Positions 16,655 through 33,488 of a stretch of DNA of 33,488 nucleotides are shown here, one piece after another. Each line of letters begins with the position of its first letter. Position 1 is the first letter of the stretch. A model generated the notes under the pieces. That model was not told the DNA's origin, did not search any database, and saw only the letters and a program-made list of their open reading frames with translations. The stretch spans positions 1,936-35,423 of the forward strand of contig PMKV01000138.1 of NCBI GenBank assembly GCA_003157875.1, given 5' to 3'. The position numbers were made by a program, and so were the translations under genes. This DNA is from Chloroflexota bacterium (GTDB lineage Bacteria; Chloroflexota; Limnocylindria; Limnocylindrales; CSP1-4).

Positions 16655-16658
16655 TTTT

Positions 16659-16760
16659 GGGATTTGGATGCTCGGTCTGGCTCTGCCCGGCCGAGCATCT
16701 CAACTTGTGCTTGCGACAACGGGCACAGAGACTGTCACCGGAGCAGCGTTCGCGAACTCG
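16659..16760 (-). repeat. Inverted copy A: 3' end of the PCu(A)C-like gene plus hairpin
   Basis: On the minus strand this encodes FANAAPVTVSVPVVAST-S, a stop and a hairpin. It is nearly identical to the end of the gene at 17501-18193, which lies on the other strand (copy B, 18135-18234). By hand I count 8 mismatches in about 95 aligned positions, 6 of them inside the hairpin. No further homology to that gene continues beyond about 16762. Confidence 0.85.
16667..16699. terminator. Hairpin A between the PepSY gene and copy A
   Basis: A 15-bp stem with one mismatch (GATGCTCGGTCTGGC pairing with GCCCGGCCGAGCATC) and loop TCT. It lies 12 nt after the PepSY stop and, on the other strand, directly after the stop of the copy A remnant. 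It could terminate from both sides. No T-run follows. Confidence 0.55.
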
Positions 16761-17511: not shown

Positions 17512-18193
17512 CTTCAATGAACGCCTGACGAGGCGACTCAGGGCGCTGGATGCAGCGGTGCCTCGACCCTTGATCAAGGAGGAGGGGGTTCTGTCGGGAA
17601 CTCGATCGACCCGTGTCACAAGCCGATTTCCACTCGGACTCGTCGCCGGCGTGGTGGCCATTATCGCTGTGGTCGCAGTGGCATCGATGACACTGCGCAC
17701 CTCCTCGAGCGTCGGAGCGAATGAGTCCACGGCGCCGACAGAATCCGCAGCCAACGCATCGTCTCCCGTTGCGGGGATGGTCATCACCAACGTCCAGGCG
17801 ATTCCATTCGCAGGCAGCGGCAATCCGGTTAGCGTCGTCGCGACCATTCAGAACCAGACCGGCGTTGACGACAAGCTCATCGGGGCTTCCTCGCCCAGCG
17901 CCACGAGCGGAGGACTGTACGGAACAAGCGGAGGCACTCAGGCCTCGACAGATGCGAGTGGAATGGGAAGTCTGCGCCCGACAGATGCGAGCGGAATGGG
18001 CAACTTGCGCCCGATGCCATGGTGGCTGATTACGAATGGTCAAACGATCCAGCTTCGGCGGGGCGACGGCGAGATCGTCCTGAACGGGCTCGCTGCTCCC
18101 CTCACGCCTGGAGACCACGTCCAGGTAACGTTCAAGTTCGCGAACGCTGCTCCCGTGACAGTCTCTGTGCCCGTTGTCGCAAGCGCAAGTTGA
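17501..18193 (+). CDS. Membrane-anchored PCu(A)C-like protein, putative sigma partner
   Basis: 230 aa. A cytoplasmic N-terminus (about 1-44, RLTRRLRALDAAV) leads to one transmembrane helix (45-63) and a Ser/Thr/Ala linker. An extracytoplasmic PCu(A)C-type domain occupies about 92-226: ITNVQAIPFAGSGNPVSVVATI, VDDKLIGASSPSA, then TIQLRRGDGEIVLNGLAAPLTPGD and APVTVSVPVV. PCu(A)C proteins deliver Cu(I) to cytochrome oxidase using His and Met ligands. Here the first His (normally ELHE) reads GLYG and the HxM motif (GGYHLML) reads GDGEIVL, so the classical site is gone. Only Met residues in the repeated GMG/MPW stretch remain. The N-terminus, membrane helix and overlap with the sigma factor gene suggest an anti-sigma or sensor role; that is inference. 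The gene has island-like codon use. Confidence 0.8.
   Translation: MEDDFNERLTRRLRALDAAVPRPLIKEEGVLSGTRSTRVTSRFPLGLVAGVVAIIAVVAVASMTLRTSSSVGANESTAPTESAANASSPVAGMVITNVQAIPFAGSGNPVSVVATIQNQTGVDDKLIGASSPSATSGGLYGTSGGTQASTDASGMGSLRPTDASGMGNLRPMPWWLITNGQTIQLRRGDGEIVLNGLAAPLTPGDHVQVTFKFANAAPVTVSVPVVASAS
17948..18013 (+). repeat. Tandem 33-bp repeat in the PCu(A)C-like gene
   Basis: Two in-frame units, 17948-17980 and 17981-18013, with 5 mismatches, encoding TDASGMGSLRP and TDASGMGNLRP. It duplicates the Met-containing segment that aligns with the second copper-ligand region of PCu(A)C proteins. Confidence 0.9.
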
Positions 18194-18234
18194 GATGCTC
18201 CGTCGGGCACAGCCCGGCGGAGCATCCAAATCCC
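18135..18234 (+). repeat. Inverted copy B: end of the PCu(A)C-like gene plus hairpin
   Basis: Partner of copy A (16659-16760) in opposite orientation. It covers the last 18 codons, the stop and the hairpin. The two copies enclose about 1.4 kb with the sigma factor and PCu(A)C-like genes. Confidence 0.85.
18194..18226 (+). terminator. Hairpin B directly after the PCu(A)C-like stop
   Basis: A 15-bp stem with one G-T pair (GATGCTCCGTCGGGC pairing with GCCCGGCGGAGCATC) and loop ACA, starting at the base after TGA. No T-run follows. Compared with hairpin A, stem position 8 and its partner have both changed, keeping the pair. Confidence 0.65.
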
Positions 18235-18259
18235 CAACGCCTGGAAGGTTTTCGGCGGA

Positions 18260-22208: not shown

Positions 22209-23104
22209 GTGAGGGCGACGAACCGGTCCTCCATCTCGCCCGGGGTCGGGGCAGGGTCGACACGAACGAACGTCTCGCGCCCGAACATCTGCTCCAGTTG
22301 CGCCCGCTGCTCGGGATCGTCCCAGCGACGACCGCGCATCTGGCTGTCGTGGCAGGCCAGGGCCGCAACCTTGCGTTCGATGACGGCGGTGATCGGCACG
22401 ACCGTGGTGATCTCCTCGTCGGGTCGAGCCAGCTTCTGGAAAGCCTCGGCCTGGCGGAGGTCATCCTCGCTCGGCGGCGTGTCGTCGCCGGCGCGGTGCC
22501 GTTCCTCGGCCATCGCGGCCTGCATCGCCGCTACGGCGGAACGCGGCATAGCCTGGTGGTAGAGCGCAACCGGGCCGCCGAGCTCCCCCGCCGCCCGCCG
22601 GTAAGCGGCCGTGGCCGTGGCCGAGCACGCGGTGTGGTCGGGGTGGCCGTACACACCGCCCGGATCGAAGGTGACGATGACCGCCGGCCGCAGCCGCCGG
22701 ATGACGGCGAGGATCCGGTCCACTACCTCATCCTGGGGGGCGCGGGCGAGCGAGCCTTCGGGGGCGCCCCAGCCCTCCATGCCCGAGTCGCGATAACCGA
22801 GGAAGATCGGCTCGGCGACACCCAACTCGCTGCAGGCGCAGGCCAGCTCGTTTCGTCTGATCTCGGGATCGAGCGAGTGGTCGACGTCCATCTCGCCGGG
22901 TCGTCCGCCCTGGTCGCCGTTGGTCATGCACAGAACCCAGACCGGATTACCGGCGGCCGCGGCCAGGGCCATCACGCCGCCGGCGCCGTAGCTCTCGTCG
23001 TCGGGGTGGGCGAAGATCGCGAGCAGGCCCTTGGGCGTCACGGGAGTCGTCGAGCCGATCTCGGGGGCCACGTCAGTGGCCGGACCGCCGGGCGGTCGAT
23101 GCAC
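22196..23104 (-). CDS. LmbE/PIG-L-type N-acetylglucosaminyl deacetylase
   Basis: 302 aa. Zinc-dependent deacetylase family that includes MshB and Mca of mycothiol metabolism and GlcNAc-PI deacetylase. The metal motif AHPDDE is at 32-37 (His33, Asp36) and the third ligand is in GHPDH (154-157). The strand pattern LLAIFAHPDDESYGAGG, then LCMTNGDQG, IFLGYRDSGMEGW and VIVTFDPGGVYGHPDHTA is that of the family core. The ALACHDSQMRG segment near the C-terminus is seen in Mca-like proteins. The substrate is uncertain: mycothiol conjugates if the organism makes that thiol, otherwise another N-acetyl sugar. The ATG at 23104 overlaps the end of proC; a GTG at 23071, just past the proC stop, is a plausible alternative start. 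Confidence 0.9.
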   Translation of the reverse strand: MHRPPGGPATDVAPEIGSTTPVTPKGLLAIFAHPDDESYGAGGVMALAAAAGNPVWVLCMTNGDQGGRPGEMDVDHSLDPEIRRNELACACSELGVAEPIFLGYRDSGMEGWGAPEGSLARAPQDEVVDRILAVIRRLRPAVIVTFDPGGVYGHPDHTACSATATAAYRRAAGELGGPVALYHQAMPRSAVAAMQAAMAEERHRAGDDTPPSEDDLRQAEAFQKLARPDEEITTVVPITAVIERKVAALACHDSQMRGRRWDDPEQRAQLEQMFGRETFVRVDPAPTPGEMEDRFVALTWGD

Positions 23105-24017
23105 CGGGGCCGGCGCTGCCGGCCGTCTTGCCGGCCGCGAGCCTGCCGTCCGTGCCCCCGGCAGCCTGGCCCTCGTTCAGGCCGAGGCCCTTCTCGAGGT
23201 CTGCCCCCAACTCGACCGTTCGCCGGTACGAGGCCCACACCGCCTCCGACAGGACGGTTCGGAGCCGGCCGGACTCGAGCTCGTGGATGGCCGCGGCGCT
23301 GGTTCCGCCCGGCGAGGTGACCATGTTGCGCAGCACAGCCGGGTGCTGGGCCGTGGCCTTGGCGAAGGCCGTGCTGCCCTCGAGCGTTTCGATAACCAGG
23401 TCGTGGGCGATATGGCGTGGGAAGCCGAGGTGAACCGCGGCGTCGATCAGCGCCTCCATGACCAGGAAGACATATGCCGGACCGGTGCCGCTGACCGCGG
23501 TCGCCATCTCGACGAATCGCTCGTCCTCTACCTGGAGGTCGGTGCCGAGGGCGCGCAGCAGGACCCGCGCCTGGTCGCACTGCAACTCGGTCACTTCCGG
23601 TGTGGCGTACCAGACCGTCACGCCACGACCTATCTGGGCGGGTGTGTTCGGCATGCTGCGGACGACTTCGCGGTGCTCGAGGAGGCTGGTCAACACGTTG
23701 CAGTTGGCGCCGGCAACGATCGAAACGACCAGCTGCTCGGGCCGCAGACGGCCACCCAATTCGTGCCCGACCTTGGTCAGCGTCTGCGGCTTGACCGACA
23801 GCAGGATCACGTCCGCGTCGCTGGCGGCTTCCAGGTTCGAGGCGACCATTCGCACGCCGTACTGGCCGGTCAGCTCCTCACGCCGTTCGGGCCGCGGCTC
23901 GCTTCCGACGATCCGATCGGGGCCGACGAGCTTGCCTCGGAGCAGCCCGGCAATGATCGACTCGGCCATGACTCCGGAGCCGATTGTGGCGACGGTTCGG
24001 TTCGAAAGGGGCGACAT
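23073..24017 (-). CDS. proC: Pyrroline-5-carboxylate reductase
   Basis: 314 aa. Reduces pyrroline-5-carboxylate to proline with NAD(P)H, the last step of proline synthesis. The N-terminal Rossmann motif TIGSGVMAES (11-20) is followed by DVILLSVKPQTL, VVSIVAGAN, then VVRSMPNTPAQIGRG. The C-terminal dimerisation domain has AVSGTGPAYVFL and the family signature TSPGGTSAAAIHELE (234-248). The family usually ends near residue 270. Here about 35 extra low-complexity residues follow (NEGQAAGGTDGRLAAG to the end), probably read-through into spacer. The ATG has no ribosome site, but TATACT ends 7 nt upstream, indicating a leaderless transcript. Confidence 0.95.
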   Translation of the reverse strand: MSPLSNRTVATIGSGVMAESIIAGLLRGKLVGPDRIVGSEPRPERREELTGQYGVRMVASNLEAASDADVILLSVKPQTLTKVGHELGGRLRPEQLVVSIVAGANCNVLTSLLEHREVVRSMPNTPAQIGRGVTVWYATPEVTELQCDQARVLLRALGTDLQVEDERFVEMATAVSGTGPAYVFLVMEALIDAAVHLGFPRHIAHDLVIETLEGSTAFAKATAQHPAVLRNMVTSPGGTSAAAIHELESGRLRTVLSEAVWASYRRTVELGADLEKGLGLNEGQAAGGTDGRLAAGKTAGSAGPGASTARRSGH

Positions 24018-24024
24018 GTCGGCG

Positions 24025-24030
24025 AGTATA
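24025..24030 (-). promoter_or_regulatory. -10 element TATACT for leaderless proC
   Basis: On the minus strand TATACT, then CGCCGAC (7 nt), then the ATG at 24017. The best -10 match in the window, and there is no ribosome site. The -35 position reads CTTCCT, not a consensus. Confidence 0.6.
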
Positions 24031-24120
24031 GGCGCGGTTGCGGGCGCAGGAAGGCCAGTTTCGCGCGCAATTGCACCCCTTGGGCGCGACCCGACGCGGA
24101 GTGGATTCGCGGTGGAAGGG

Positions 24121-24194
24121 CCCCAGACAGACGAGAGCCGGTCGCCTGGGGGAGGAGGAGCGACCGGCTGTTTGTTCTCGTCTTGGCTCTGGGA
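24121..24194. ncRNA. Structured-RNA-like element with long bulged hairpin
   Basis: Three stacked stems can be drawn: CCCAGA (24122-24127) with TCTGGG (24188-24193); GACGAG (24130-24135) with CTCGTC (24177-24182); and AGCCGGTCGC (24136-24145) with GCGACCGGCT (24160-24169). A 7-nt bulge GTTTGTT (24170-24176) sits on one side only. The 14-nt apical loop is CTGGGGGAGGAGGA on the plus strand and a C-rich TCCTCCTCCCCCAG on the minus strand. On the minus strand the loop would be an anti-Shine-Dalgarno sequence, as in several CU-rich-loop small RNAs. A second purine-rich run follows at 24190-24210. Strand is not decided: the minus strand is the transcription direction of both neighbours. It could also act as a terminator or a leader element of proC. 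Confidence 0.5.
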
Positions 24195-24306
24195 GGAGAG
24201 GGAGGAGGAGCTGACGCGAATATTCGTTTCGCCGGCTGAACTTATCCTGAAGATAGAGTGGACGTTCGGTGGAGCCGCCGCGAAGATTCTGCGGACCCGC
24301 CCGACG

Positions 24307-25011
24307 TCAGGCCCCGCGGCGAGCGGACCCGAGGAGGAAGAAGCGACCGGTCGTGGCGACTTCTATCTGCCCGAAGCCGGCTCGCCGTAGCGCCGAGTCG
24401 AGTGCGGCCGGCTCGTAGTAGACCTTCCTGACGCGGAAGCTCGAGCCATCGTCCAGGCGGCGCACCTGGAGATCGTCCTCCGGCGGTCGATGGTCCGATG
24501 CGCCCGAATCCGGATCATGCCGGGAATCGATGAAGGCGAACAGCCCACCGCGAACCAGCCAGCGAGCCACCAGCGCCACGAACTCATCGAGTCGCGAGCG
24601 ATCGACATGGCTCAGCCAGAAGCCGGCGAAGACACCGTCGACTGACTGATCCGGCTCGGCCCAGGCATCGCGGACTCCAACCTCCGCGTCGAGACCCGCG
24701 GCCGTGAGCCTGATTCGGGCCCTGTCGAGGGTCTCCGCCGACGCGTCGTAGAGGGTGAGTGCGCTCCGTCTCGCGAGCGACGTCGACCACCATCCGGTGC
24801 CGGCAGCCAGCTCGACAACACGGCCGTGGAATGGGCGACCCTCGAGCCACGTCGCCGCAGCGTCGAGGTCGTGCCGCCATTCCTCGTCGGCGGACCGGCC
24901 GTGCGAATAGCGGCCGCGGCGGAGATACCAATCGTCGTACTCACCGGCCCGGGCCGCGTAGTAGCGGACCATCTCGGAGTCGATCTCGTCGCGGGGTTCG
25001 GTCGGGGACAT
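24307..25011 (-). CDS. Class I SAM-dependent methyltransferase
   Basis: 234 aa, ATG with GAAGGCGAG upstream. The SAM-binding motif I VVELAAGTGWWS (about 65-76) is clear, followed by LTLYDASAETLDRAR (motif II acidic residue), VGVRDAWAEP and the post-motif GVFAGFWLSHVD. Later come LVRGGLFAFIDSRHDPDSG and a C-terminal strand pair ending FGQIEVATTGRFF. The N-terminal YYAARAGEYDDWYLRRGRY is the substrate-side helix common in small-molecule methyltransferases of this size. Substrate unknown. It begins 9 nt after the stop of the BtuF-like gene on the same strand, so co-transcription is likely. Downstream, 290 nt including the RNA-like element separate it from proC. Confidence 0.88.
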   Translation of the reverse strand: MSPTEPRDEIDSEMVRYYAARAGEYDDWYLRRGRYSHGRSADEEWRHDLDAAATWLEGRPFHGRVVELAAGTGWWSTSLARRSALTLYDASAETLDRARIRLTAAGLDAEVGVRDAWAEPDQSVDGVFAGFWLSHVDRSRLDEFVALVARWLVRGGLFAFIDSRHDPDSGASDHRPPEDDLQVRRLDDGSSFRVRKVYYEPAALDSALRRAGFGQIEVATTGRFFLLGSARRGA

Positions 25012-31085: not shown

Positions 31086-31118
31086 CCGGGCCTGGGCCGG
31101 CGACACCTCCGGACACGA

Positions 31119-31140
31119 AACCCGGCCACAGGGCCGGGTT
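31119..31140. terminator. Terminator after the aldo/keto reductase gene
   Basis: AACCCGGCC pairs with GGCCGGGTT (9 bp, loop ACAG). On the minus strand it lies 15 nt past the tRNA fragment's CCA. It is repeated with altered but still pairing bases at 33437. Confidence 0.75.
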
Positions 31141-31146
31141 CCAGAA

Positions 31147-31169
31147 ATCGGCATTGGTTGCGGGGGACG
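31147..31169. repeat. Direct repeat, left copy (tRNA 3' end and flank)
   Basis: 23 nt identical to 33466-33488 at the window edge. Similarity continues leftward through the adjoining terminator hairpin (31114 onward versus 33433 onward), apart from changes within the stem and loop. Confidence 0.9.
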
Positions 31170-33418: not shown

Positions 33419-33436
33419 GGGAAGGCTCGAAACACG

Positions 33437-33460
33437 AAACCCGGTCCTTCGACCGGGTTT
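33437..33460. terminator. Terminator between GlsB-like gene and tRNA end
   Basis: AAACCCGGTC pairs with GACCGGGTTT (10 bp, loop CTTC). It can serve the GlsB-like gene on the plus strand and the tRNA on the minus strand. Confidence 0.8.
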
Positions 33461-33465
33461 CAGTT

Positions 33466-33488
33466 ATCGGCATTGGTTGCGGGGGACG
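33466..33488. repeat. Direct repeat, right copy (at window edge)
   Basis: Identical to 31147-31169; the window ends inside it, so its full length cannot be seen. Confidence 0.9.
33474..33488 (-). tRNA. 3' end of a tRNA (probably initiator Met), cut by window edge
   Basis: On the minus strand CGTCCCCCGCAACCA, the same acceptor 3' strand, A72/A73 and encoded CCA as the fragment at 31155. Only 15 nt are visible; whether the rest is intact lies outside the window. Confidence 0.5.

Follow-up and report, generated by a model that had tools for sequence, protein, structure and literature searches.

The window, a 33,488-nt stretch of a Chloroflexota draft genome, holds on the minus strand, upstream of proC, what is probably a small-RNA gene in its own right: it would be activated by an OmpR/PhoB-type regulator together with htrA and macA, and its CU-rich segments would pair with Shine-Dalgarno (SD) sites and lower translation. 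Both the small-RNA assignment and the regulon shared with htrA and macA are well supported, and the conservation, the strand, the inner stems and the promoter architecture of the element likewise emerge from sequence analysis. The genomes compared are all metagenome-derived drafts, that of the window measuring 3.06 Mb; those of the genus are Chloroflexi MAGs, mostly from fen. The element and its surroundings are laid out as follows.

24307-25011, minus strand: methyltransferase gene (Pfam Methyltransf_25), the upstream neighbour in the window.
24236-24251, minus strand: direct repeat TTCAGGATAAGTTCAG with an 11-bp period, a predicted OmpR/PhoB-type activator site.
24219-24224, minus strand: predicted -10 box AATATT, about 10 nt past the repeat.
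24121-24212, minus strand: predicted small RNA of about 90 nt, its start inferred from the -10 box and its 3' part formed by the hairpin.
24191-24210, minus strand: 5' CU-rich tract CTCCTCCTCCCTCTCCTCCC, a candidate anti-SD seed.
24130-24182, minus strand: the whole bulged hairpin; over 20 sequences, pairing holds in 98.8% of cells.
24130-24135 with 24177-24182, minus strand: second inner stem of 6 bp, GACGAG/CTCGTC.
24170-24176, minus strand: one-sided bulge of 7 nt, adjoining the 10-bp stem.
24136-24145 with 24160-24169, minus strand: inner stem of 10 bp, AGCCGGTCGC/GCGACCGGCT.
24146-24159, minus strand: CU-rich hairpin loop of 14 nt, TCCTCCTCCCCCAG, the second candidate anti-SD seed.
24122-24127 with 24188-24193, minus strand: outer 6-bp stem of the preliminary description, which appears in the window fold and is not supported by comparison.
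24025-24030, minus strand: TATACT, the predicted proC -10 box, of leaderless type, 7 nt before the ATG.
23073-24017, minus strand: proC, pyrroline-5-carboxylate reductase (Pfam P5CR_dimer and F420_oxidored), the downstream neighbour.

The element was found in one genus. A BLAST search with positions 24018-24306 gave a strong match in 19 of the 20 other genus genomes and in no other genus, and the conserved block covers 24118-24251. The preliminary description had named a lack of conservation or covariation in related genomes, together with a missing transcript, as grounds against its proposal of a structured RNA, and on conservation and covariation the proposal was not refuted: the covariance model R1, built from 20 loci with the genome G014 left out, matches 21 of 21 genus genomes, with E-values of 2e-23 to 3.2e-15 that rest on a shortened calibration. 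The held-out genome is matched at 78.3 bits, and there, too, proC lies downstream. Beyond the genus, 86 further family genomes and a phylum sample of 201 genomes, into which some members of the family and the genus also fall, yielded no convincing homologue; the family and phylum matches to R1 are weak (E >= 8e-4), and matches of similar strength also occur at sibling loci within the genus. In a pattern scan of 85,000 species, hairpins of Streptomyces, Nonomuraea and others came up besides those of the genus; they look unrelated and were set aside as ordinary hairpins whose stem happens to be similar. One MAG carries slightly different alleles of the element on two contigs (L036 and L039), probably through a mixture of strains.

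The hairpin belongs to the minus strand. Read in that direction, positions 24210-24105 fold with a minimum free energy of -39.3 kcal/mol (z = -3.75), a stability reached by 0 of 200 shuffled sequences, whereas the plus-strand fold is ordinary (z = -0.89; 39 of 200 shuffles are as stable). An RNA from the plus strand with a GGAGG loop, offered as the other option in the preliminary description, was rejected because its fold does not beat the shuffles. The second purine run reported on that strand is real; it lies at 24191-24210, where the minus strand reads as the CU-rich tract given above.

Three stems had been drawn over the hairpin, with a 7-nt one-sided bulge and a 14-nt loop. All of these can be placed at their coordinates, and the inner 10-bp and 6-bp stems stand: among 20 genomes 98.8% of their cells are paired, against at most 45% in slid controls. 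Two-sided changes are found at 3 pairs (6 cells in the 20 sequences), a modest covariation because the primary sequence of the stems is nearly invariant. The outer stem, on the other hand, was rejected as a conserved feature: when its arms were swapped between species, the cognate arms were no more stable than the swapped ones (p = 0.44). Its appearance in the fold is probably a side effect, the 5' side being CU-rich and the 3' side opposite it G-rich.

The predicted RNA holds two pyrimidine-rich segments, the 5' CU tract and the hairpin loop, both complementary to SD sites of the GGAGG type. The tract is CU-rich in all 20 loci, variable in length, and mostly unpaired or loosely paired in the folds; the loop carries CCTCCC or a near C-rich variant in nearly all loci.

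Upstream of the RNA stands its own promoter. The repeat TTCAGGAnnnnTTCAG (TTCAGGA-N4-TTCAG), a direct repeat of 11 bp, ends ten bases before the -10 box, and the succession of TTCAGnnnnnnTTCAG, 10 bases and an AT-rich -10 hexamer keeps an identical register in 20 of 20 aligned loci. The predicted RNA start falls near a conserved TCAG just before the CU tract. Together with the presence of the element in 21 of 21 genus genomes, this dedicated promoter of fixed spacing supports the earlier view of a small RNA and not only a terminator, now assigned to the minus strand. In its sequence the element has what a trans-acting anti-SD small RNA should have, namely a promoter of its own, a discrete conserved RNA and no single co-conserved gene upstream. 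It stands before proC throughout the genus, while the upstream neighbour differs by species: a methyltransferase in 9 of 20 loci, the end of a BtuF-like gene in several others.

It is unlikely that the hairpin is merely the terminator or a 3'-UTR hairpin of the upstream gene, its CU-rich loop being incidental. A strong GC hairpin downstream of a same-strand gene does fit this reading, and behind a Streptomyces gene the stem recurs with a tail resembling CTCGTCTGTC, an off-target pattern match from which the stem may double as the terminator of the small RNA itself. An intrinsic terminator, however, joins a GC hairpin to a U-run, and here the U-run is missing: a scan for loops of 3-8 nt over 23900-24450 returned 0 terminator-like sites, and no T-run is visible by eye near the hairpin, just as had been remarked from the letters. 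Moreover, the upstream gene varies by species whereas the element keeps with proC, a dedicated conserved promoter separates that gene from the hairpin, and the loop and the CU tract are conserved although a terminator needs neither.

Transcripts from the TTCAG promoter might instead read through the hairpin into proC, making the element a 5' leader or attenuator, as the preliminary description also allowed. Synteny with proC across the genus and the distance from hairpin to ATG, about 110 nt in the window, speak for such an arrangement, which we nevertheless regard as improbable. What makes a leader less likely is a conserved TATACT promoter belonging to proC itself, whose position 7 nt ahead of the ATG suggests leaderless transcription; GCCTATACTCGCC(G/C)xCATG at the proC start is nearly invariant across loci. 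Also against a leader, the spacer from hairpin to proC differs between loci both in length and, outside the GCCTATACTCGCC shortly ahead of the ATG, in sequence, and stress genes use the same type of promoter. A small RNA combined with some read-through transcription of proC would be compatible with the weak terminator tail and with the shared strand; we hold this combination to be quite improbable. That the element acts as DNA, as a regulator site or an extruded cruciform, is hardly credible: the near-invariant inner stem would also suit a protein-binding inverted repeat, but the strand-specific fold, the one-sided bulge, the compensatory changes and a promoter directed into the hairpin all favour RNA.

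The predicted small RNA shares its promoter type with a small set of genes. The repeat TTCAGGAnnnnTTCAG occurs in 1-5 copies per genus genome, and the reversed control pattern in 0. Among 46 distinct sites, 16 precede the small RNA and proC, 10 htrA, 9 macA, 2 an arylsulfotransferase gene and 1 degP, whose product has a PDZ domain; the 8 others include one second allele of the small RNA at a contig end and one site outside the genus. The MacA/HlyD-like adaptor was named from its sequence features and its position before MacB-like genes, Pfam giving no match. A -10-like hexamer lies at equal distance in most assigned sites, reading TAnAAC/CATACA at the same spacing from the repeat in the htrA and macA promoters. 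With one mismatch allowed, similar boxes are found in the window's genome ahead of three HtrA-type ORFs, at distances of 75, 111 and 86 nt, and ahead of one MacA-type ORF, at 103 nt.

In three genomes (G002, G005 and G011) the htrA-macA-macB cluster runs on into a two-component system, with genes for a histidine kinase and for a response regulator of the OmpR family; the regulator gene of G002 lies at L091:11612-12283. The response regulator carries the Response_reg and Trans_reg_C domains, is found in 21 of 21 genus genomes and is nearest, among solved structures, to PhoP, PrrA and BasR, all members of the OmpR/PhoB family. The sites of this family are usually direct repeats of 11-bp period just upstream of the -10 box. 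Judging from this gene neighbourhood, the regulator encoded in the cluster probably binds the TTCAGGA repeat. CpxR, MprA and CssR are OmpR-family regulators of envelope-stress regulons with HtrA-type proteases, and the likeness to them lies in the direct-repeat activator site ahead of the -10 box and in these proteases. The present set differs in its box, TTCAGGA-N4-TTCAG, in a regulon that includes a small RNA with anti-SD segments, and in that its regulator is putative. A literature search for an MprA box to set against TTCAG gave nothing usable.

We propose the following mechanism. An OmpR/PhoB-family regulator, probably that of the cluster running from htrA through macA and macB to the response regulator and the histidine kinase, would bind TTCAGGA-N4-TTCAG upstream of a weak -10 box and switch on the small RNA together with the HtrA proteases and the MacA-type efflux adaptor, genes of the sort that usually answer envelope or secretion stress. 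The resulting RNA of about 90 nt, with its CU-rich 5' tract and a strong terminal hairpin bearing a CU-rich loop, would pair through tract and loop with purine-rich SD sites of the AGGGAGGA type, and the pairing would reduce the translation of a subset of mRNAs under htrA-inducing stress. As the RNA is conserved in 21 genomes and has an HtrA-type promoter, it probably blocks translation upon envelope damage; by analogy with known RNAs, we infer a translational repression of SD-bearing mRNAs during the stress that induces htrA. The identity of the regulator, the inducing signal, the pairing, its targets, the direction of regulation and the exact ends of the RNA are predictions of this model.

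Partner sites are at hand. A genome has about 9 occurrences of the pattern AGGGAGGA-N2-10-ATG and about 2 of the reversed control, which means that strong SD partner sites exist; the candidate genes picked out by eye behind it are cydB, an ABC permease, substrate-binding lipoproteins, rpsD and purA. Many genes in the genome are without an obvious SD (crude hits 27/94, against 13 in the control), and the target pool is therefore narrower.

No Rfam family reaches its gathering score in the window. The best-scoring model at the element is ar14 (RF02344, Alphaproteobacteria), found at 11 of 20 loci with E up to 5; it scores 28.4 bits in the window and 39.2 at best in the genus, below its cut-off of 58.8. 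The analogy drawn earlier with CU-rich-loop RNAs is a good one, and this sub-threshold model is the closest. In the ar14 model the loops read CCUCCUCCC, and a GC hairpin at the end carries the last one; the window loop TCCTCCTCCCCCAG contains this motif in the same place, while its relatives mostly keep CCTCCC only. The first stable hairpin of ar14, with the same loop motif, is by contrast absent or weak in the element, the CU tract being mostly unpaired. The ar14 RNA comes from a different phylum, and convergence is as likely as homology.

Other RNAs of this kind are known. The CcsR1-4/cuckoo RNAs of Alphaproteobacteria are described as stress-linked RNAs with CCUCCUCCC loops and anti-SD motifs (PMC10253847, PMC3927594), and in Rhizobiales RNAs such loops are described as anti-SD elements (PMC3927594). 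The CcsR1 model gives 14.8 bits at the element, below its cut-off of 65.3. CcsR RNAs share a transcript with a DUF1127 gene, made from an RpoH promoter; the element, unlike them, stands alone next to proC behind an OmpR-type site, and around it lie genes for ProC, a methyltransferase and a BtuF-like protein, not for DUF1127. With 6C/B11 (RF01066, Actinobacteria) it shares a C-rich hairpin loop, which in B11 is proven to pair near ribosome sites (PMC12395582); in that RNA of a GC-rich bacterium without Hfq, the C-rich loop in the terminator hairpin was identified by experiment as the repression seed (PMC12395582). The 6C model, with a cut-off of 47 bits, does not match the element even with E raised to 10.

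We file the element, which would work like ar14, CcsR and 6C, as a new family within a type of RNA already known. A literature search for Limnocylindria and small RNA returned no paper, and in a looser search no Chloroflexi paper surfaced. The element would add a small-RNA family from an uncultivated soil lineage, whose promoter, probable regulator and co-regulated genes could all be recognised in the sequence. This family would be a further case of stress-induced anti-SD RNA beside those of Alphaproteobacteria and Actinobacteria, and with such a further lineage the question of convergence versus common origin becomes testable.

The same genomes hold sibling candidates. One, RNA B, was found with R1: its stem, GCCGG(T/C)CGC, has the same core as that of the window RNA, its loop is CCCCCTCC with hardly any variation, its tails are richer in T, and its promoter reads TTCAGC-N5-(A)TCAG with a -10 box at the same spacing. 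Its own model gives a strong match in 11 of 21 genus genomes (E <= 7e-10). A third C-rich RNA, 6C-like, with two C-rich loops and a terminator, lies at another locus in most genus genomes.

C81, 788-882, in the window's genome (G000; L138, L224): RNA B, with further loci L131, L133-L137, L140 and L141.
C169, 41550-41619, in the window's genome (G000; L025): 6C-like RNA, 43.1 bits against a cut-off of 47 (47.1 in G010), among loci L021-L030.

It is conceivable, at somewhat less than even chances, that the window RNA, RNA B and possibly the 6C-like RNA make up a lineage-specific set with CU-rich or C-rich loops, the first two sharing with htrA and macA the control of a single OmpR-family envelope-stress system. 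If true, the set would have evolved independently and would correspond to the small RNAs that other bacteria use in envelope stress.

Elsewhere in the window no tRNA was found, and two pairs of repeats were noticed. Positions 16656-16758 and 18135-18237 form a 103-nt inverted repeat whose arms are 91% complementary and separated by 1376 nt; it may represent a mobile element or paired genes. Positions 31113-31169 and 33432-33488 form a 57-nt direct repeat (84%) with GAAACCCGG..CCGGGTTTC hairpins, each followed by an identical ATCGGCATTGGTTGCGGGGGACG.
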